Below are positions 6,051-32,146 of a stretch of DNA of 64,000 bases, piece after piece. A program made the translations under genes and the position numbers. This DNA comes from Chelatococcus sp. YT9. Its GTDB lineage: Bacteria > Pseudomonadota > Alphaproteobacteria > Rhizobiales > Beijerinckiaceae. Each line of letters starts with the position of its first letter. Within the stretch, counting starts at the first letter, position 1. The stretch covers positions 790,637 through 854,636 of the forward strand of contig NZ_JAHBRW010000002.1 in NCBI RefSeq assembly GCF_018398315.1, written 5' to 3'. The notes beneath the pieces were generated by a model. It made no database searches, was not told where the DNA came from, and was given only the letters and a program-made list of their open reading frames with translations.

Positions 6051-8950
6051 CATCGGTCTCCACAAAACCGGCGGATGGAATAGGGGGCCAGGTCGCGGTC
6101 GGGATCGCGACCGCACACGAGATCTGCCGTGAGCTGGCCGACAATCGGACCCAGCGTAAAACCGTTGGATGTGACGGCGTTGAAGAAGCCCGGCATCGCC
6201 GGGTGCTCGCCCAGGATCGGTGCGCCGTCGATATTGATGTTCATCGCTGCCCAGCTGCGGATGAGGTGCAGCTTGCGCAAACCTGGCACGACATGCTGCG
6301 CGACCCAGAGATTGCCTTCGAGGCTGGAAAACATCGGGCGCGGATGGCTGTGCACAGGATCAAGTCCTGCTGTCCAACCGCCGCCAATCAGGAAGTTCCC
6401 ATTGGCCGCCTGTTTGAGGGTCAGATGGCGATCGGCATGTGCGACGAGATGCGAGATTGCGGGGGCCGCCGCTTCGGTCACCGCCATCTGCAACGGCGCT
6501 CCGAACACTGGCACGTTGAGGCCGAGCATCGCGCCGATCCGCGCGGCGAAAGCCCCGGCGGCATTGACGATCTTGCCCGCGCGGATCTTGCCGCGCGACG
6601 TCGTCACCAGGAAACGGCCATTGTCGCTCGCGATGGACAACACCTCCGTCCGGTCGAACACGCGGGCACCGGCGGCGATCGCCCCGTCGAAGACGTGTCG
6701 CGTTGCGACCAGCGGATTGATCTTGCCTTCCTGCGGGCAATAGGCCGCGCCGATCAACGAGGGCGACAGGGAAGGCTCGAGACGCTCCAAGTCGGCCTTG
6801 CCGATCACGTTGCATTCCACGCCGCTTTCGCGCTCAACGCGGGTCTTTTCCTCCAGGAAGCGCATATGTGCTTCGGTCTCGGCGACCATCAGGCCGCCGG
6901 TGATCGTCATCTCAAAGTCACGGCCCAGTTCCTGCTCCAGTCTCTGCCAGAGAAGGATCGAATCGCGCTGCAGCGGAAGGGTGCGGGCGGCGGCGCCTCC
7001 TCCCCCTTCGGCGCGCGCGCCATGGTCGAAGGAAAGAAGCTGCGCGTGGAGGCTTCCCGCATTGCCGCCGGAGGCGAGACCGCCGGGGAAGCCGCGCTCC
7101 AGTACGATGACATCCTCCCCGTTGCGGGCCAGGAAGAGCGCCGTCGAGAGACCGGCGATCCCCGCGCCGATAATCAGGGTTGCGGTATCGTTGACAGGCA
7201 GCGGCTCGGGATTGGCGAGCGGTGGGCGCTCCGGCAGGAGGGCGCGCTTGTGGCCACCCCATTCCGGCTTCTCCACGGCAATAGCCGAGATGGGGATGGG
7301 TCGCAGGGGCATCTGCGGCGCGAGCAAGCCGTTCGTCTCGCTGGCGGGCAGTCCTACCAGCCTGGTCATCGTGCGGGCGCAATAGCGGCTCTGACACCGA
7401 CCCATACCCGCGCGCGTCAGTCGCTTGAGCGTAGCGATGTCTCGGGGGCCGGCAGCGACGGTTGTCTTGAGCTGCCCTGCCAGAACGCTCTCGCAGCGGC
7501 AGGCGACAGCCGCGTCCGGCAGGTCCATTTCAGGCCTCGCAGGGGCAAACAGCCTCCAAAGCGCCGCCTGGAACGATGTTGCGCGCGCGAGCTTGCGCGA
7601 CGCGGCCTCGTCTTTCTCGACCTTGAAGCCAAGCTTTGCCGCGACAGCCAATCCGGCGAGACGGCCTGCTGCCATCGCCACATGGGCACCCGCGAAACGT
7701 ACCGCTTCCCCGACAATATGCACGTTCCGCAGTGAGCTCTCGCCATCGATGCGGCAAACCGCCTTCAGCGCTCCGGTCTCAGTGACGGTGTGGGCGCATC
7801 CGAGCAGCCGCGACAACTCATTAGACGGGGTGAAGTCGCCGCCGAGAAGAACGGTGTCGACATCGATGGTCGTCCTGCCCTTGGGACCGGATACGGTAAC
7901 GGCGCTGACACGCCCGTCTTCGCCGTGGATTTCATTGACCTCAGATTGCCACGCGACGCGCACCCCTGCCTGCCGCAGCCAGGCAAGCTCCTTCATGCCC
8001 TTCATCGCAAGGGCCGGATCATGCCGCAGCAAGGCGGCAGCTTCGAACGGCCGGGTCCATGGCGCAGCCGCGCGCTCGACGAGCTGGATCACCGTGCCGC
8101 CTGCCCGGATGATCTCCGCTGCGATCTGGATGTTGAGCGGGCCGTTTCCGGCGACAAGCACGCGCTTGCCGGGAAGCGTGGCGTAGCTCCGCAGAAGCGT
8201 CTGCGCCGCACCCGCGGTCATGACGCCAGGAAGCGTCCAGCCGGGAACCGGGGCCGGCCGCTCGAAGGCACCTGTGCCGATCACCAGCATTCTGGGATGG
8301 CAATAGAACGCGCGCTCCGGGCCAAGGCAGGCGATAACGGGCAAGCCGTCATCATCAAGCGAGGCGCCCCAGACGGTGACGCCGCCGAGAAGCGTAACGC
8401 CCAGATCCGCGGCCTTCGCGACCAGCGCCGCGCCATCCCTGGACTGCTGGTCGCCCGACAAGGCATGGCGAGCGGCGTTGGTGTTGGGCTGCTTGTAGAA
8501 CTGGCCGCCGGCAGAGTGGCGTTCATCGACGATCGTCACCGAAGCACCAGCAGAGGCAGCGGCGATGGCGGCGGAGAGGCCCGATGGGCCCGCGCCGATG
8601 ACGAGCAAATCCATTGCCACCCGGTCAGGCCCTGGAGGGACGGGGCGAAGATCGGCGAGCATGTCGGATCTAAGGTCGGGGCGTGCGTGCTGGCGCTCGA
8701 TCCGCATGCCTTCGGCGACAGGCGTCATGCAGGAGCGCTGGCTGGTGCGTCCGTCGATGGTGACAAGACAGTCGTGGCACACGCCCATGCCGCAGAAGAG
8801 GCCACGCCTGTTAGAGGCAACGTCGGTCGAGAAATCCGGGCGGCCAAGCGCGGTGAGGGCAGCGGCGACGGACAGGCCTGGTTCGACCTCGTGCGCCACA
8901 CCATCCATGTAGACAGTTGCCCTGGCTTCTTGTCGCGTTGGAGCCGGCAT
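6050..8950 (-). CDS. Four-module HcnA-HcnB-BFD-HcnC-like FAD oxidoreductase fusion
   Basis: 966 residues from the ATG at 8950, chosen because it lies 14 bases after the lyase stop; upstream ATGs fall inside that gene. Order of modules: a small [2Fe-2S] ferredoxin-like domain (C53, C58, C61, C74); an FAD/NAD-binding domain (GAGPSG near residue 119, second dinucleotide motif GNGPLN); a BFD-like cysteine cluster (ACRCES, then MGRCQSRYC); and a D-amino-acid-oxidase-type FAD domain (IIGAGIAG near residue 585). These equal the HcnA, HcnB and HcnC subunits that are normally separate. Members of this group include hydrogen cyanide synthase, octopine/nopaline oxidase and D-hydroxyproline dehydrogenase. 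It probably oxidises a secondary amine or imino acid at the inner membrane. The single-chain fusion is unusual. Confidence 0.85.
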
Positions 8951-15504: not shown

Positions 15505-16812
15505 ATGAACAACCTGATCGAGACGATCCGCAGCCAGGCAGAACGCGACAGGGAAAAGATCCTTGCTTCGCTGCGTGTATACATCGAGCGCGGCAAGCGC
15601 GGCGAGGATGCAGTTCAGGCGCTGTTCGCTACGACCGCCGAGGCGCTCGGCTGTACCGTCACCTATCATGACTACCACCCGACGGATGTGGCGCTTGTCG
15701 AGGAATTTGCCGGCAAGGCAGCCATCGACCCTGAGCAGCGCCGCAGCGTCGTTGCCCACCGCAAGGGAACGGGTGGCGGCCGCAGCCTGATCCTGTTTGC
15801 CCATCCGGACAGCGAACCGGTCCCGGTGCCCCCCGGCTGGACGCATGATCCCTTCGCTGGCGACATCGTCGACGGGCGCATGTACGGCTGGGGAATTGCA
15901 GATGATCTCTCCGGCATCGCCGCGGGTCTCCAGGCACTTGAGCTTTTGCGCTCGCTCGATCTGTTGCCGGCAGGCGATATCTATATCGCCAATACGCCTT
16001 CCAAGCGGCACGCACGCGGCGTCGCGCGCCTCCTGCAAGAGGGACTGAGCGCCGATGCGGCGGTGTACCTGCACCCCGCCGAGTCCGGGGTCGGCTTGCG
16101 GGAGGTCAAGGCTTTTACCTCGGGGGAGGTGACCTTCAGGGTCGTTATCGAAGGCAAGCAGCCGCCGACCACTGAGCCGCTGCAAACCGCCTTCGCGCAT
16201 CTTGGTGTCAACGCCATCGACAAGGCCTATGTGATCTGGAACGCACTGAAAGCGCTCGACGAGCAGCGCGCGATGCGGGTAGAGCATCCGTTGCTTCAGG
16301 CCAAGGTGCGCCGTTCGACAAATCTCATGATGTCCTACATCACGGCCGGCGATCCGAAGCGACTGTCCCGCATCGCCGACCAGTGCACGCTGGGCGCGGC
16401 GCTTGCTTTCCCGCCGCCTGAGACGCTGAGTTCAGTTTGCGCGCAGATCGAGCAGGCGATTGCCAAGGCGGCGCAAGCGGATGAATGGCTGCGTGACAAC
16501 CCCCCGAAGGTGATTTGGGATGCGGGCACAACAGGTGCGGAAGTTGCGCGCGATCACCCGTTGGTCAACGCGGCGTTCATGGCAGTGTCGGGAGTTTCAG
16601 GCATTCAGCCAATGATCAATCCGATGCACACGGGCAGCGATATTCGCGTGCCGAACGTCCAGAAACAGATCCCAACGATCGGTCTTGGCCCCTTATGCGG
16701 CGATCTGACCCAGAACGGCGGCCATGACGAGTGGGTCGATGCCAACGATCACGTCCGCTTCGTCGCGGCCATCGCGGGTATCATTGCTGGCTGGTCTGGT
16801 GTCAGGCAATAG
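15505..16812 (+). CDS. M20-family metallohydrolase (ArgE/DapE/carboxypeptidase-like)
   Basis: 435 residues. Metal and catalytic motifs are LFAHPDSEPV, GRMYGWGIADDLSG and the late NGGHDEWVDANDH. The first motif reads HPDSEP rather than the usual HxDVVP. No signal peptide is seen. M20 enzymes hydrolyse N-acyl or N-carbamoyl amino acids. Paired with a hydantoinase-like enzyme in the same regulon, it could open or deacylate the product, as N-carbamoyl-amino-acid amidohydrolases do. It lies nine bases after the dehydrogenase and ends the rightward arm. Confidence 0.85.
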   Translation: MNNLIETIRSQAERDREKILASLRVYIERGKRGEDAVQALFATTAEALGCTVTYHDYHPTDVALVEEFAGKAAIDPEQRRSVVAHRKGTGGGRSLILFAHPDSEPVPVPPGWTHDPFAGDIVDGRMYGWGIADDLSGIAAGLQALELLRSLDLLPAGDIYIANTPSKRHARGVARLLQEGLSADAAVYLHPAESGVGLREVKAFTSGEVTFRVVIEGKQPPTTEPLQTAFAHLGVNAIDKAYVIWNALKALDEQRAMRVEHPLLQAKVRRSTNLMMSYITAGDPKRLSRIADQCTLGAALAFPPPETLSSVCAQIEQAIAKAAQADEWLRDNPPKVIWDAGTTGAEVARDHPLVNAAFMAVSGVSGIQPMINPMHTGSDIRVPNVQKQIPTIGLGPLCGDLTQNGGHDEWVDANDHVRFVAAIAGIIAGWSGVRQ

Positions 16813-25023: not shown

Positions 25024-25875
25024 CTAGCTGGAGCGCTGACCGACGAAGACATTCAGACCGACTAGTTTGTCAATTAGGTATATCACGATGACCGACCCGA
25101 CCATCGTCCATACCGAGACTGCAGCGATCACTGGCCGGTACTGATAAAGAAGATATTCATAGATCTGGACCGGGAGCGGCTTGAATTCGGCGGGAGATAG
25201 AAAGATGGATATCGAAAAATCATTCCAGGACGTTATGATGGCAAAGAGAAACCCCGCCAAAATACCTGGCTTGATGAGCGGTAATGTTACATGAACGAAG
25301 GTATGAAGCGGCCCCGCCCCGACGCTGCTTGCCGCATCTTCTAACGCCGGATCGAGACCCTCGGTTACGGCGGCGATTGTGCGCAGTGGAAAGGGCATTG
25401 TGATGAGTACATGACCAATAAACAAGCTGATCAAACTGGTCGCTCCAAACAGCAGCATTATCGTCTGATAGAGTGCCAAAGCGAAGATGATAGTGGGGAC
25501 GAGGAGCGGGCCCAAAAACGCTAAGCTTAGCATCCTGGCAACATTAGGATTAGCCCTCCTGAGAGCGAGCGAGATCGGCAGAGCGAAGAGCGTAGCAGAT
25601 GTCGCAGAGCCCACAGCGAGCGCGAAGCTCACGGAAGCCCCTAGCTTGAAGTTGTGGTCCTGGAGAGCCTCGACGAACCACCGCAACGTAACGGTGCGTG
25701 GCGGAAACGCCATCTCGTCGGCGTTTAGCGCAGCACCAATCACGACAATCAAAGGGGCCAACACAAATAGAAATGCAAACGAAGTCGCTATCCCTAGTCC
25801 ACTCGGCAGTAACGCGTGAGTGTGTCTTCTGCGCCTGCCTGGCGGTAGAATCGTGGGTTGGGCCGCGGAAATCAC
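25024..25875 (-). CDS. ABC transporter permease (PotC-like)
   Basis: 283 residues if it starts with the GTG at 25875, which overlaps the stop of the preceding permease as GTGA; there is no ATG at a suitable place. Membrane helices and the EAA loop (GLDPALEDAASSVGAGPLHT) fit the polyamine/Fe3+/opine importer class. It is the last gene of the importer operon, immediately before the decayed region. Confidence 0.88.
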   Translation of the reverse strand: MISAAQPTILPPGRRRRHTHALLPSGLGIATSFAFLFVLAPLIVVIGAALNADEMAFPPRTVTLRWFVEALQDHNFKLGASVSFALAVGSATSATLFALPISLALRRANPNVARMLSLAFLGPLLVPTIIFALALYQTIMLLFGATSLISLFIGHVLITMPFPLRTIAAVTEGLDPALEDAASSVGAGPLHTFVHVTLPLIKPGILAGFLFAIITSWNDFSISIFLSPAEFKPLPVQIYEYLLYQYRPVIAAVSVWTMVGSVIVIYLIDKLVGLNVFVGQRSS

Positions 25876-26786
25876 GATCTGAGTGCCTTGAATTTGTGGT
25901 TGACGACATACAGGTAAACAACGGTGATGATTAAGCTCATCGCAAACAGACAAATTCCCACTGTGGCAGCGAATGGAAAGTTGCCGTTGATTGACGCCTG
26001 CTGGTAGGCCAACATTCCCATCATGCGCACGCGCCCCCCACCCATCATAGCCGGGATGGCAAACGCCGCAGCATTCAATGTAAAAACGATAAGCGAGCCG
26101 GCGATTATGCCTGGGATAGACAGTGGGAAGGTGACGTTCCAAAAAGTACGCATCGGGCTGGCACCAACGCTGGCCGCCGCTTCTTTGAGAGCTGGATCTA
26201 TCGCGGCGAGCACACCGATGAGCGGCAGGACCACATACGGCACGGCGATCTGCACAAGCCCGATCAGCACACCCGTCTCCGTGTACATTATACGTAACGG
26301 CCGATCGACCACACCTAGCCAGAGCAGACTGGGATTAAGCAGGCCGTTATTCATTAGAAGGACATTCAATCCGAAGATGCGGATGATGATATTGACTGCG
26401 AGCGACACCACGACCAGGCCGGTTAAAAACCCGCGTCTGTTCGCTGGCAGCTCAGCTATATAGTAAGCGATGACGTAGCCGATCCCAAGGGCGAACAATG
26501 TGGAGATCAGCGCAAGGCGCACAGTCGTCCATAGGCTGGTGACGAGATAGAAAGGGTCCCCGAGGTAGTCGACATAATTTTGGATCGTGAACGTGAGTTG
26601 TGGCACCGACCCGATCTGGTAAGTCGATAGGCTTGTGAGCACCAACCAGATCATGGGTCCGAAAAAGAATACCAGCACGAAAAGAAGAGGTGCAGCCACG
26701 ACCCCGAAGGAAAGGAGGCGCCATGGCACCACTTTTTCCGGTGCTGCCAACTCAGCTTTCTGAGACGATAACAGCGTTATTGACAT
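25872..26786 (-). CDS. ABC transporter permease (PotB-like)
   Basis: 304 residues from the ATG at 26786, inside the last 35 bases of the ATPase gene, with GAGG nine bases upstream. Six or so membrane helices are visible. The EAA loop reads AIDPALKEAAASVGASPMRT. It pairs with the PotC-like permease to form the channel. Confidence 0.9.
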   Translation of the reverse strand: MSITLLSSQKAELAAPEKVVPWRLLSFGVVAAPLLFVLVFFFGPMIWLVLTSLSTYQIGSVPQLTFTIQNYVDYLGDPFYLVTSLWTTVRLALISTLFALGIGYVIAYYIAELPANRRGFLTGLVVVSLAVNIIIRIFGLNVLLMNNGLLNPSLLWLGVVDRPLRIMYTETGVLIGLVQIAVPYVVLPLIGVLAAIDPALKEAAASVGASPMRTFWNVTFPLSIPGIIAGSLIVFTLNAAAFAIPAMMGGGRVRMMGMLAYQQASINGNFPFAATVGICLFAMSLIITVVYLYVVNHKFKALRS

Positions 26787-27825
26787 TGAACGAGACCTCA
26801 TCGCCGGGATGGAACCCATTGGCGGCAGCCAACTCCTGTATAAAAATCAGGTTCTCGTCTGACCCGGGAACACCTATACCGTAACGAATAGAGGCGCCTT
26901 CAAAGATAACTTCGCGCACCTGTGCTTTAATCCCGCCAGTCGTTGTTTTGCGATGAATTGACAACCATTCCGGCCTTGCAGCGATGCGGACAACATCGCC
27001 CACACGCACGGGACCGTTGCATGATGCAACTGTGGTGAGTCCCGCGTCCAATGCGACGCGCGCCATCTCCTGCTCAACCATCTCGATCCGGCCGGGAAGA
27101 AAATTCGCATCGCCTAGAAAACTCGCGACGAACGCCGTGGCTGGCCGCTGATATACCGTGCGCGGATCCGCCATCTGCTGAATACGTCCGCCGTGCATCA
27201 CCACGACGAGGTCAGACATCGACAAGGCCTCTTCCTGGTCGTGAGTTACGAATAGCATCGTAACGCCCAGCGAGCGCTGTAATCGCTTTAACTCGAGCCT
27301 CATCTCTTCGCGCAAGCTTCGATCAAGATTGCTGAGCGGCTCGTCAAGAATGATGACCTCAGGATCTATGGCGAGAGCTCGGGCCATGGCAACCCGCTGC
27401 TGCTGTCCGCCGGATAATTCCCGCGGATAACGATGCTCGAGCCCTTCAAGACGTACCATGCCGAGCGCTCGACTCACACGGGATGATATGTCCTCTTTGC
27501 CGAGCTTCCGGAGCCGCAGCCCGAATGCGATATTCTCAAATGCCGTCATGTGCGGCCAGAGAGCGTAATTTTGAAAGACGACTCCGATATTGCGCAGATA
27601 GGGCGGCAGGTCTGTAACGCGCCGCCCCCGTATCGTTACCTCGCCGACATCGGGGGTAACAAATCCACCGATGACGCGAAGCGTGGTCGTCTTGCCGCAA
27701 CCTGACGGCCCGAGAACCGTGACAAATTCACCGGTTTTTACCTTGAGAGACACATCGTCGAGGACGCAAATGGCTCCATAGGACTTCGAGCAACCGGCGA
27801 GCTCTATGTCGATCCCGTTGCTCAT
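26752..27825 (-). CDS. ABC importer ATPase (PotA-like)
   Basis: 357 residues from the ATG at 27825, which overlaps the binding-protein stop (ATGA). Walker A GPSGCGKTT, Q-loop region FQNYALWPH, signature LSGGQQQR, Walker B VIILDEP, H-loop FVTHDQEEAL, then a TOBE domain of about 110 residues. It energises the PotB/PotC-like channel. Confidence 0.92.
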   Translation of the reverse strand: MSNGIDIELAGCSKSYGAICVLDDVSLKVKTGEFVTVLGPSGCGKTTTLRVIGGFVTPDVGEVTIRGRRVTDLPPYLRNIGVVFQNYALWPHMTAFENIAFGLRLRKLGKEDISSRVSRALGMVRLEGLEHRYPRELSGGQQQRVAMARALAIDPEVIILDEPLSNLDRSLREEMRLELKRLQRSLGVTMLFVTHDQEEALSMSDLVVVMHGGRIQQMADPRTVYQRPATAFVASFLGDANFLPGRIEMVEQEMARVALDAGLTTVASCNGPVRVGDVVRIAARPEWLSIHRKTTTGGIKAQVREVIFEGASIRYGIGVPGSDENLIFIQELAAANGFHPGDEVSFNVNNAVIVSES

Positions 27826-28850
27826 CACCGCACCACTTCCCGATCCCAACGACGCTGCCATTCGTCGTAAACCGTGACAATGTACTTCCAGTCAGCGGTC
27901 TGAAGCCGAGCAATATTTTCCCTATTTATCACTAATTTGGCGGCAACTTCTTTTGGAAGTTCAGCTCTCGAGTTTGTTGGAAAGTATCCAAGCCTGGTTG
28001 CCATAATAATGCCGGACCGCGGGGACAACAGATGGTTCACTAGCTTCTGAATGAGCTCGCCGTTGGGGCGGCCAGCAACAATGCTCATTGTCGAAGACAG
28101 TGGGAAGAAGCCCTCCTTCGGCACGGCTCCGACGACTTTGACCTTTTCCGTATCATTGGCCCATGCGATGCGACCATCGGTCCAAATGCTCGCGTCAATC
28201 TCGCCATTCCGGTAAAGCTGTAGAACCTCAGCATGGCTATTGACCCAGGCATGCACATTCTCGGCAATTTTGGCCATTTGCCGAAAACCAGCGTCAGGAT
28301 TACGCTCATCACCACCCGCGAGCTTGGCGAATAACGTGATGAGATCTATGGACTCGGGCCGGAAGTTCCGCAGAGCTAGGCGGCCGGCAAATTCCGGTCT
28401 GGCTAGATCAAACCATGACTGTGGTGCGTCAGAAACGCGGTCAGGACTATAGGCTATTATATAGCCACCGAAGTTGGCCGCCACCGTGAAGTCGGAGTAT
28501 CTCGCCTGGGGGTAAAGATCCTTCAAGTTCGTCACCAAATCAGGATTGAGCTTGCTAAAAGCTCCCTCGCTCTCCAGGCGGAGCGCAAATAATGGATCAG
28601 AGATCAGTATATCGACTTCCTTGTTCCGTACTTTGACGATTGTATCAGCACCTTCTGCTGGTACCAGTCGAACCTTTACATCGTTTTCCGCTTCAAAAGA
28701 CGACAAACTTTCGGCTAGCGCCTGATCATAAGCGCCGCCAAAGCTATTAATCACCAGTTCTGTTTGCTGAGCCACTGCCATATCCAGGGCAAGTACCGTG
28801 GTGAACACGGTCAAAGCGCCGAACAATAGGCGCCTGCACATCTTAATCAT
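27825..28850 (-). CDS. Periplasmic binding protein of the PotABCD-type importer
   Basis: 341 residues from the ATG at 28850, which has GGGGAG five bases upstream. The signal peptide ends near ALDMAVAQQ. The mature part begins ELVINSFGGAYDQALAESLS, typical of the PotD/opine-binding group. It is the first gene of the importer operon. The spectrum of this family includes polyamines, mannopine-type opines and similar cationic compounds. The linked cucumopine-synthase-like pair and HutC-type regulator make an imidazole compound a plausible ligand, which is inference. Confidence 0.88.
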   Translation of the reverse strand: MIKMCRRLLFGALTVFTTVLALDMAVAQQTELVINSFGGAYDQALAESLSSFEAENDVKVRLVPAEGADTIVKVRNKEVDILISDPLFALRLESEGAFSKLNPDLVTNLKDLYPQARYSDFTVAANFGGYIIAYSPDRVSDAPQSWFDLARPEFAGRLALRNFRPESIDLITLFAKLAGGDERNPDAGFRQMAKIAENVHAWVNSHAEVLQLYRNGEIDASIWTDGRIAWANDTEKVKVVGAVPKEGFFPLSSTMSIVAGRPNGELIQKLVNHLLSPRSGIIMATRLGYFPTNSRAELPKEVAAKLVINRENIARLQTADWKYIVTVYDEWQRRWDREVVR

Positions 28851-29569
28851 CGCAACTCCCCTCTGAAGCATGATGAGCATTGCTGTTAAGCGGCGCTGAA
28901 ATAGAATGCCAATGGGGCGCGCAAAACGCTCCGGCACCTTGATCGATAGACCATGCTGGCGTTGTCTATTCAGCTTTCGTTATCGCCGATCTACTGTCGA
29001 CGTTGTAAACGTCTATACATCTTGCACGAGATCTCTGGAGCCTGCAAGTGCGAATCGCGAGTCGAATAACGTTCGCGATGAATTGCAATTCCCAACGCTG
29101 CCGAGCCATTGGGGGCAAGCAGTCTCTTGACCGGGAGATCGTGATCTTGTCACGTTGGCCGGTGCGCAGCCGTTAATTGAGCCTGTGGCGCGGCTCGGGA
29201 GTGACGTCACTCACATCGCCGCCGTGTCGTGGGGCCGGCTGGCATCGGTCAGGCGCATCGACCAGGCTTTCGCCAAGATGGGCGGAGCCCTTGGCGATAT
29301 TCGTCCGCGTGGCCATCAGACCGGGCAAGCCGTTTGTTTGAGCGGTTGCAGGCCAGCCTATGGTCAACGGCTGCCCCGCGGCCGCGTGCGCAGCCCAGAC
29401 CATCCGGCCGACTTCCATTGTCAGCCTTCAGATCTCATCAAAGCTGCGCGCCACTGTAAGACGAAAAAACGCCAGCGCGGGATATGGGTCCAACATCTAC
29501 GACCGGCCGAGTCAGAGTAGTATGTCCGGGCAATGTTGATTGCCCGGACCGCGCGCCGCAAAGGCACGT
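28851..29569. other. 720-base gap upstream of the importer
   Basis: It contains the promoter region of the importer operon and the motif at 29011-29021. Open frames at 29155-29520 (both strands) show no recognisable family or ribosome-binding site. A vanished gene is possible. Confidence 0.4.
29011..29021. promoter_or_regulatory. GTCTATACATC, candidate HutC-type operator (copy 1)
   Basis: Its reverse complement GATGTATAGAC matches GATGTATACAC at 30853-30863 in 10 of 11 positions. It stands about 160 bases upstream of the binding-protein gene. HutC-subfamily GntR regulators bind short dyads with a TATA-like core, so the regulator at 31373 is the natural candidate. Confidence 0.5.
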
Positions 29570-30163
29570 CTAGCTCGGCACCTTCCAGTTCGCGGGCTGT
29601 TCGAGTACCGATGCTGGCAGCTCTCCTTCCCGAACAAGATTTTCGACCTCACGCCGACTCCTGAGGGGGAGCTGATCGCCGAGATGCCACGGAAATACGA
29701 GAAAGAACCAGCGATAAAGTCGTTGGGTGTAATTAAACCAGCTCCAAAGGAGACTGTCGAGATCCTGCTTTGTGTCGATGCTTTCGAACGAAGCAATAAC
29801 TTTTTCCCCCAAGTCGGACAGTTTGCCCAGATTGAGCCATGGCGCTGGACAGTTGGGCTCTGAGACATCTCCCATAAGCTGGTACATATGCCGGCTCATG
29901 TATATCCAAAAGCGCTTGCAGTGCTCCAGGGGAATATCGGGATCGTCAATGGCTTGCTTCATCGCGGGACCTGCGGTCCACCATCCGATGGCTTGCATAT
30001 CGCCAGTTAGGAAGAAGAGATTACCTAAATTCTGTCCGTCTGTGCCCGCGCCACTCGGGAATACACCCAAGCGCGACATCTTTACCTCAAGCGGCTCTTC
30101 CCACATGATCCGGTCGAGGTCAGCTTCGATCTCGTCCTTTACAACCCGCCAGTGAATTGACAT
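29570..30163 (-). CDS. Helical protein resembling the cucumopine synthase C-terminal bundle
   Basis: 197 residues, no signal peptide, rich in predicted helices and aromatic residues (WWTAGPAMKQAIDDPDIPLE, RFWIYMSRHMYQLMGD, WSWFNYTQRLYRWFFLVFPW). Directly upstream, four bases away, is a cyclophilin-like protein. The order (cyclophilin-like domain, then helical bundle) equals the two halves of Agrobacterium cucumopine/mikimopine synthase, which condense histidine with 2-oxoglutarate. I assign it to the cucumopine-synthase-related helical-bundle family from recall of that architecture. The reaction here may be synthesis, breakdown or isomerisation of a similar compound. No catalytic residues can be named with confidence. 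Confidence 0.55.
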   Translation of the reverse strand: MSIHWRVVKDEIEADLDRIMWEEPLEVKMSRLGVFPSGAGTDGQNLGNLFFLTGDMQAIGWWTAGPAMKQAIDDPDIPLEHCKRFWIYMSRHMYQLMGDVSEPNCPAPWLNLGKLSDLGEKVIASFESIDTKQDLDSLLWSWFNYTQRLYRWFFLVFPWHLGDQLPLRSRREVENLVREGELPASVLEQPANWKVPS

Positions 30164-30167
30164 CGTA

Positions 30168-30623
30168 TTACGCTCCCCTTCTGGAAATCATAATAGTGAC
30201 GAGCTTCGCGTTTTTATGTTGCTTCCAAACATGGCGCCCGGCGCGATAAAGCACGTCGAGATCTTTCGCTCGCGCAACGATAGGGCCGGGCGCGGAGACT
30301 GGTTCGGTGTTGTCGGGTCCATAGTTTATTGCGATAAACTTGTTGCCGGCGTAAACGATTGAGCCCTGGCCGAGGTTTGAAAGATGCTTAGTCTTGCTGC
30401 CTAACGGCGAGGCTTGCGTGCCGGTCGGCTGCGGCTCCCGCTCAGGCCGACCTCTCGCCAAGATGTAGTCTCCAGTGGAGGTCGTGTGGGAACACCATAC
30501 TTTGAGGGGTTCCTTGACCTCCTCCCACAGAAGCTGTGAGCATTTTGGCTCTTCATCCTCAAGCAGGGCCACTACAGCCTCCTCAGGAAAGCCCTCAAAT
30601 TTAAGTACAAGCTCCTTCGGCAT
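30168..30623 (-). CDS. Cyclophilin-like small protein, partner of the helical-bundle gene
   Basis: 151 residues, cytosolic. The start (MPKELVLKFEGFPEEAVVAL), the tryptophan-rich middle (LWEEVKEPLKVWCSHTTSTG) and the segment GSIVYAGNKFIAINYGPDNT follow the same layout as the DUF3830 protein at 3473-3883: N-terminal strand, barrel, late GxIxxY. It would supply the barrel half of a cucumopine-synthase-like enzyme, with the helical half in the next gene. First gene of a two-gene unit, transcribed away from the HutC-like regulator. Function remains hypothetical. Confidence 0.6.
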   Translation of the reverse strand: MPKELVLKFEGFPEEAVVALLEDEEPKCSQLLWEEVKEPLKVWCSHTTSTGDYILARGRPEREPQPTGTQASPLGSKTKHLSNLGQGSIVYAGNKFIAINYGPDNTEPVSAPGPIVARAKDLDVLYRAGRHVWKQHKNAKLVTIMISRRGA

Positions 30624-31372
30624 TTCTTATTTCCTTGTGGTGCAGCCAGGTGTCAGTGGTGGGTCTGCATAGTCGGTCTCCCCGGGAGACAACCATATTC
30701 CTGCGCCCGGACCTTCGGATGCGAATAGTATGTACATTTAACAGTTCGGTCCGCGCGGCCATAGCTGGAACCGCCACAGAAAAGTGGTTCATTTCATGCG
30801 AGTGTCACGACCGCTCGCAGACAGGAAAGGAACAATCATTTCCTAGGCACTAGATGTATACACAACTTATGAACGAAGGGAAGGGGCATTTTGTCCACTT
30901 TTTGCGGAGTGCATGTTTTTTGCTGAATCGATGTTCTGGGTTTCGCCCCCGTCTCTGCGACGGTGCGATTGTAACCTTAGCTCTTAAGAGCTTCGCTCGC
31001 TCGGCGCGTTGCGTGCCAACCTTGCGACTGAGCACGGTGGCGCATAGGGTTATCGTCTGGGGAAGGGCCCGGCCGCCGTGTGGTCGCGCGACAAAGTTGT
31101 ATATAGGTTTAATCTCGTGGTCCTGTTACGGATAGGGAATTAGTGCTACTTTGGCGGCCATCGAGTTGTAGCCGGTGCGTTTCATAGCTCTCCTCGTCGT
31201 CAAACGGAGCTGATACCCGGTTGGGGCGAAACTGAGGGATGGTCACCGAGGGCAAGCGTGGGGAGTTGCGAAGATAGTCATGCAACGTGGCCCAATGGGT
31301 ACACTCGACAGAAGGCGCCGGTGCTAGGTTCTTTGCTGCAGACGCACGAATGGTGATTGGAGTTAGTTTCGC
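30624..31372. other. 750-base divergent intergenic region
   Basis: It lies between the cyclophilin-like gene and the divergent GntR/HutC gene. It holds the dyad-containing motif at 30853-30863 and a weaker similar one, GTTGTATATAGG, at 31096-31107. No coding sequence is recognised. Its length leaves room for more regulatory sites or a small RNA. Confidence 0.4.
30853..30863. promoter_or_regulatory. GATGTATACAC, candidate HutC-type operator (copy 2)
   Basis: It includes the palindrome GTATAC and matches the reverse complement of the site at 29011-29021 in 10 of 11 bases. It is 230 bases upstream of the cyclophilin-like gene and 510 bases upstream of the GntR gene. Confidence 0.5.
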
Positions 31373-32146
31373 ATGTCAGGCATTGGGTCTCAGAACGACA
31401 TAGCTGATGATGGCGACGACGAAGCGCTCCCGATCTATCAGCAGATCCGCCATGACATCGAACGCAAGATTATGTCGGGCGACTGGAGAGAAGGGTATCG
31501 GGTGCCATCTGAGAGCGAGTTGGCTACAATGTACGACTGCTCGCGCATGACAGCGAACAAGGCGATTTCCAGCCTGTCGTCTGCCGGTTTAATCGTGCGG
31601 CGGAGAGGAAGCGGTTCGTATGTCGCTCCTCCACGCTCCCAAGAGCCACTGCTCGCGATGCAGGATATCCGTTCCGAGATCCTCTCGATCGACCGAGCAT
31701 ATAGCTGCACAGTCTTGAACCGCACGATCAGTTCTATAGGCGACCCGGTTGAGGCGGTTCAGGTCGGAGCGCCAGTCGGCACGAAGATACTTCTTTTGGA
31801 CATGGTCCATTATGCCGATAGCCTGCCGTACGCTCTCGAGACACGCCGGATCAATCTAATGGCGGTTCCCGAAGCCGAGCGAGAAGGCTTCGAGATGTCC
31901 TCACCCGGTTCGTGGCTTGTCAATAACGCTACGTGGACAAAAGGTGAGCATTCCGTTCGTGCTATTTCGGCAGATAACGCGATCGCCAAGCAGCTTCGTG
32001 TGCCACGCGGGACCGCCTGTATCTCGATCGCACGCCGAACCTGGCGAGCCGGCGATCTCATCACCTTTGCGCGCTTCATATACCCCGGCGATCGCCATCG
32101 ATTTGTCGTGCAATTCACTCCCACATCATCTGGATCTCCCGCTTAG
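31373..32146 (+). CDS. GntR-family regulator, HutC subfamily (UTRA domain)
   Basis: 257 residues. The winged helix contains YRVPSESELATMYDCSRMTA and NKAISSLSSAGLIVRRRGSG. The UTRA-type effector domain follows, with LPYALETRRINLMAVPE and the closing CISIARRTWRAGDLITFARF that is typical of histidine-utilisation repressors (HutC, whose inducer is urocanate). It is divergent from the cyclophilin-like/helical pair. It probably controls that pair and the importer through the GATGTATAnAC sites. The effector could be an imidazole compound, which is inference from family likeness. Confidence 0.88.
   Translation: MSGIGSQNDIADDGDDEALPIYQQIRHDIERKIMSGDWREGYRVPSESELATMYDCSRMTANKAISSLSSAGLIVRRRGSGSYVAPPRSQEPLLAMQDIRSEILSIDRAYSCTVLNRTISSIGDPVEAVQVGAPVGTKILLLDMVHYADSLPYALETRRINLMAVPEAEREGFEMSSPGSWLVNNATWTKGEHSVRAISADNAIAKQLRVPRGTACISIARRTWRAGDLITFARFIYPGDRHRFVVQFTPTSSGSPA

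Follow-up and report, generated by a model that had tools for sequence, protein, structure and literature searches.

What does a short motif that recurs in front of an importer operon and a cucumopine-synthase-like gene pair do, and what would the genes behind it do together? Cucumopine is a nutrient derived from histidine and is known from the plant tumours crown gall and hairy root. The locus in question lies in a 64,000-nucleotide stretch of DNA, hereafter the window, on a 2.0-Mb contig in a Chelatococcus genome of 6.74 Mb (G000). Three copies of the motif are present, and judged from the sequence they very probably serve as binding sites of a HutC-type repressor that senses histidine.

An importer operon and a split Pictet-Spenglerase-like enzyme

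The importer is encoded on the reverse strand by genes for a substrate-binding protein (SBP_bac_6/8, 27825..28852), an ATP-binding protein (26752..27861) and two permeases (25872..26819 and 25024..25926). The substrate-binding protein shares 63% identity with the importer protein of plasmid pRi2659, and the ATP-binding protein shows 63-66% identity to Ti/Ri plasmid loci and Chelatococcus sister loci. The enzyme pair lies on the same strand. The product of cucC (29570..30163) is the helical-bundle half of a cucumopine-synthase or Pictet-Spenglerase-like enzyme (PF18631 Cucumopine_C, 33.2 bits, cut-off 27), and cucN (30168..30623) is a separate ORF for the cyclophilin-like half. A profile search gave no Pfam match for CucN. 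Its AlphaFold model (pLDDT 76), run on sequences from the window and from genomes only, resembled McbB (Z 17.4) and KslB (Z 16.9), with ordinary cyclophilins scoring about 11. CucN is thereby modelled as the cyclophilin-like half seen in KslB and McbB, in a prediction that is not fully independent because its alignment included fused relatives.

Both parts of the Pictet-Spenglerase fold, the PF18631 helical bundle and the cyclophilin-like domain, are present on these two ORFs. KslB and McbB also consist of a cyclophilin-like and a helical-bundle half, but the window enzyme is divided between two separate ORFs, shares 15-20% identity with them and differs from them in that they use tryptophan; KslB has a solved structure in complex with the product formed from L-Trp and 2-oxoglutarate. 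The same split pair was found in a distant genome of another family, near hutI, hutF and a partial hutH-like gene and with two TGTCTATACAT sites. In Chelatococcus asaccharovorans (G001), the pair occurs without importer, HutC or motif and adjoins a different GntR gene, so that its link to HutC and the motif is not universal.

A regulator of the HutC type

The regulator gene (31373..32146, forward strand) encodes a HutC-type GntR/UTRA protein (PF00392, 65 bits; PF07702, 87 bits). It scored above the cut-off of the TIGR02018 HutC equivalog (258.1 bits, cut-off 220) and below that of the stricter PRK14999 model (154, cut-off 424). Among PDB entries it best matched 2pkh, in which a histidine utilization repressor is represented by its effector domain. 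A tree built from 40 HutC-type proteins grouped the window regulator and its counterpart in the congener G003 with the HutCs of cucumopine-type loci (100/99 support) and separated this group from the canonical hut regulators in the sample.

The HutC operator of Pseudomonas hut is TGTA-N2-TACA (PMC12977541). Operators 1 and 2 of the window, described below, match it at 6 and 7 of the 8 fixed positions, with one weak half-site. The window shares with the Phut/HutC system the regulator family, the core TATACA of a near-palindromic operator, a site ahead of the regulator's own gene and the histidine theme. It differs in its targets, which are an importer and a cucumopine-synthase-like pair instead of hut enzymes, in the degenerate half-site of its operators and in the separate clade of its protein.

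Putative operators and their conservation

A preliminary description had reported two 11-mers on opposite strands that agree at 10 of 11 bases, and both were found where it placed them. Putative operator 1 is GTCTATACATC at 29011..29021 on the forward strand (matrix core 29010-29019), about 160 bp upstream of the likely start codon of the importer. Putative operator 2 is GTGTATACATC at 30853..30863 on the reverse strand, or GATGTATACAC on the forward strand (matrix core 30855-30864), 230 bp upstream of the enzyme pair and about 510 bp upstream of the regulator gene. The weaker third site described there was also present: putative operator 3 is GTTGTATATAGG at 31096..31107 on the forward strand (matrix core 31098-31107), 266 bp upstream of the regulator ATG, and it likely serves the predicted autoregulation of this gene. 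A promoter scan found no sigma-70-like promoter beside the sites.

The conservation check did not refute the proposed regulon: both motif copies are kept without change in G003, the only close orthologous locus detected. The whole locus is present there, with importer, cucC, cucN and HutC at 90-95% identity. Operator 1 is exact within a fully conserved block of 22 bp, the longest in the alignment of the noncoding DNA upstream of the importer (73.5% identity), and operator 2 is exact within an identical block of 19 bp upstream of the pair, where the noncoding alignment has 62.5% identity. Fully identical 11-column stretches make up 12% of the noncoding alignment on the importer side and 4% on the pair side; the sole longer identical block on the pair side (29 bp) is at the leader and start codon of the regulator. 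The counterpart of operator 3 in G003 is AGTTGTATAGATATTT, with a matrix score of 14.4.

These scores come from a palindromic weight matrix built on 37 distinct sites from the hut and cucumopine-type loci of other genomes, the window locus and its G003 copy being excluded. The five best matches in the 64-kb window were at 29899 (19.0), 30727 (16.0), 29010 (14.5), 30855 (12.5) and 31098 (11.3), which puts operators 1, 2 and 3 at ranks 3, 4 and 5; the next-best match scored 8.8. Single scores are not decisive, because top scores in random windows ranged from 6.8 to 17.3. The decisive evidence is the clustering of all five matches within 2.1 kb (29010-31107). At the G003 locus, the top four matches were the counterparts of 29899, 29010, 31098 and 30855.

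The two best matches in the window are not among the three operators. The top one (29899-29908) lies within cucC and is identical in G003; its conservation is uninformative because it falls within codons for W-I-Y-M. It is either an intragenic operator or a codon accident, and may be due to chance. The match of rank 2, AGTATGTACA at 30727..30736 on the forward strand, is a possible extra site 104 bp upstream of the enzyme pair. Its role as an operator is doubtful, since it is not conserved in G003.

Distribution of the motif in the genome

The motif GTSTATACATC has four exact copies in the 6.74-Mb genome, versus none for the reversed control. Half of these copies are operators 1 and 2, and the other two are within ORFs. 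One of these two, an exact GATGTATACAC copy in the window that the preliminary description missed, is located at 15575-15585 on the reverse strand within an M20-type peptidase ORF (15505-16812). It is probably a chance occurrence, and its coding position in an unrelated gene rules it out as a member of the regulon. The other, at C2:337763 within the ORF of a FAD protein, was ruled out as well.

The looser GTNTATACAW was not enriched, with 11 sites genome-wide versus 11 for the reversed control, and the raw count alone was therefore rejected as evidence. The placement of the sites gave a different result. Six of the 11 have a HutC-type regulator gene no more than 6 kb away, three such genes being involved (two sites at the window locus, three at a sister locus and one at the chromosomal hut operon), where 0.06 would be expected, so the frequency check did not refute the proposed regulon. 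Across four Chelatococcus genomes, 19 of 44 GTNTATACAW sites were within 6 kb of HutC-type regulators, versus 0.19 expected; the binomial figure for this clustering (2e-33) is overstated because the genomes are related. What exceeds chance is the placement of the copies, their conservation and their score against an independent matrix, and not the raw count of the loose motif.

The genome also has, at G000:C2:984093-984323 (L156, about 8130-8324), the C-terminal part of a HutC-like regulator, interrupted by an internal stop and approximately 1 kb from a GTATATACAT site. It resembles the decayed remains of a further locus of this kind.

Sister clusters on cucumopine plasmids and in other bacteria

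A related cluster was found in Chelatococcus genomes, Microvirga puerhi, Neorhizobium, Agrobacterium vitis and Rhizobium rhizogenes. Its importer is 60-69% identical and is accompanied by HutC, two fused Cucumopine_C proteins and, in most cases, hutH; GGTNTATACA-type sites precede the importer, cucF1, cucF2 and hutH. The sister cluster on the cucumopine Ri plasmid pRi2659 contains hutH and extends to formimidoylglutamate deiminase, hutI, hutG and hutU; its importer is 60-64% and its HutC about 57% identical to those of the window. The cluster is also carried by pTiAg57 and pAtAG67, and the mikimopine plasmid pRi1724, which the search covered, gave no match. PMC10745273, following Hooykaas et al. 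2022, mentions that pAtAg67 has a cucumopine-catabolic region; the sister cluster of pAtAG67 is presumably this region.

The window locus resembles the regions of pRi2659, pTiAg57 and pAtAG67 in its importer (60-66% identity), its HutC (about 57%), its Cucumopine_C proteins and the same motif before each unit. In contrast to them, it lies on a 2-Mb Chelatococcus replicon, lacks hutH, the other hut genes and oxoprolinase, and has one split pair where the plasmids have the two fused proteins CucF1 and CucF2. The fused plasmid proteins share only about 20-27% identity with CucC and CucN, and the substrate of the window enzyme may therefore differ. No HutH, HutU, HutI, HutG or HutF was found in the 64-kb window; a complete hut set is present elsewhere in the genome (G000:C1 near 3.63 Mb, L055).

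At the sister cucumopine-type locus of this genome (G000:C1 near 4.25 Mb), only a remnant of hutH is left (L041, 6854-7237); the gene is intact in G003 (509 aa). In L041 (4402-6710), CucF1 has the helical domain followed by the cyclophilin-like one, and CucF2 has the reverse order. A gammaproteobacterial version in Sodalis sp. dw_96 (L061, 6370-13702) comprises oxoprolinase, HutC, CucF2 and a different, amino-acid-type importer, together with three TGTATATACA sites. No paper that links bacterial cucumopine-synthase-like enzymes to HutC was found in the literature searched.

Proposed function of the locus and alternative explanations

The single HutC-type regulon suggested by the preliminary description gains support from conservation in G003, from the clustering of sites at HutC genes and from a regulator above the TIGR02018 cut-off. 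We consider with good confidence that the motif is the operator of the HutC-type GntR/UTRA repressor encoded at 31373-32146, a conclusion drawn from sequence comparison. Through the copies at 29011, 30853 and 31096, one repressor would repress the importer operon, cucN-cucC and its own gene, and an imidazole compound, either urocanate or the imported compound itself, would release it. The compound taken up by the importer would derive from histidine and be opine-like, resembling cucumopine or spinacine in type. CucN and CucC would form one Pictet-Spenglerase-like enzyme working in the breakdown direction (retro-Pictet-Spengler) to yield a 2-oxo acid and histidine, the latter feeding the chromosomal hut pathway. 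Binding and repression, the inducer, the substrate and the direction of the reaction are what we infer from the features observed, namely the sites, their conservation, their clustering with HutC genes, the regulator family, the domain folds and the kinship with the clusters of cucumopine plasmids. As a whole, we lean somewhat towards reading the locus as a HutC-controlled module for the uptake and breakdown of such a compound.

A match by chance, selected by eye, is a very improbable explanation of the shared 11-mer. The genome-wide count of the loose motif, which equals that of the reversed control, and the third exact copy in an unrelated ORF would fit such a match, but the exact conservation within diverged noncoding DNA, the independent matrix and the clustering at HutC genes all speak against it. 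Another explanation is that the sites are HutC-type operators not private to this locus but also read by another HutC paralogue, such as that of the chromosomal hut operon or of the sister cucumopine-type locus, within a wider histidine regulon. Three intact HutC-type regulators occur in the genome, with nearly the same motif at all three loci, and their target sequences overlap heavily. Against such sharing, operators 1 and 2 have a common right flank, ATCT, that the sister sites lack, and the locus has its own directly adjoining HutC gene, which is kept with it in G003. We regard a shared regulon as possible but doubtful.

The direction of the enzyme allows another explanation, in which the product of CucN-CucC is a histidine-derived opine or metallophore-like compound that the importer retrieves. 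KslB, a characterised relative, works in the condensing direction, as its product complexes indicate, and the same direction is taken by McbB and by the plant T-DNA cucumopine synthase. However, relatives of the window locus adjoin hutH, hutI, hutG, hutU and formimidoylglutamate deiminase, which make up a full histidine degradation route; such relatives sit on plasmids known for opine catabolism, and no exporter was seen at the locus. A biosynthetic module appears unlikely. A more specific form of the breakdown reading, which we put forward only tentatively, is that of a chromosomal module for an opine-like nutrient outside Agrobacterium, with a split Pictet-Spenglerase running in reverse and under the control of a HutC paralogue that would sense the imported histidine adduct and not urocanate.

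Through the shared and conserved operator, a family of Pictet-Spenglerase-like proteins whose role has been obscure is tied to histidine breakdown. The locus also suggests that ordinary soil bacteria use cucumopine-type compounds through related modules, and that a module of this kind, HutC switch included, is present on Ti/Ri plasmids.
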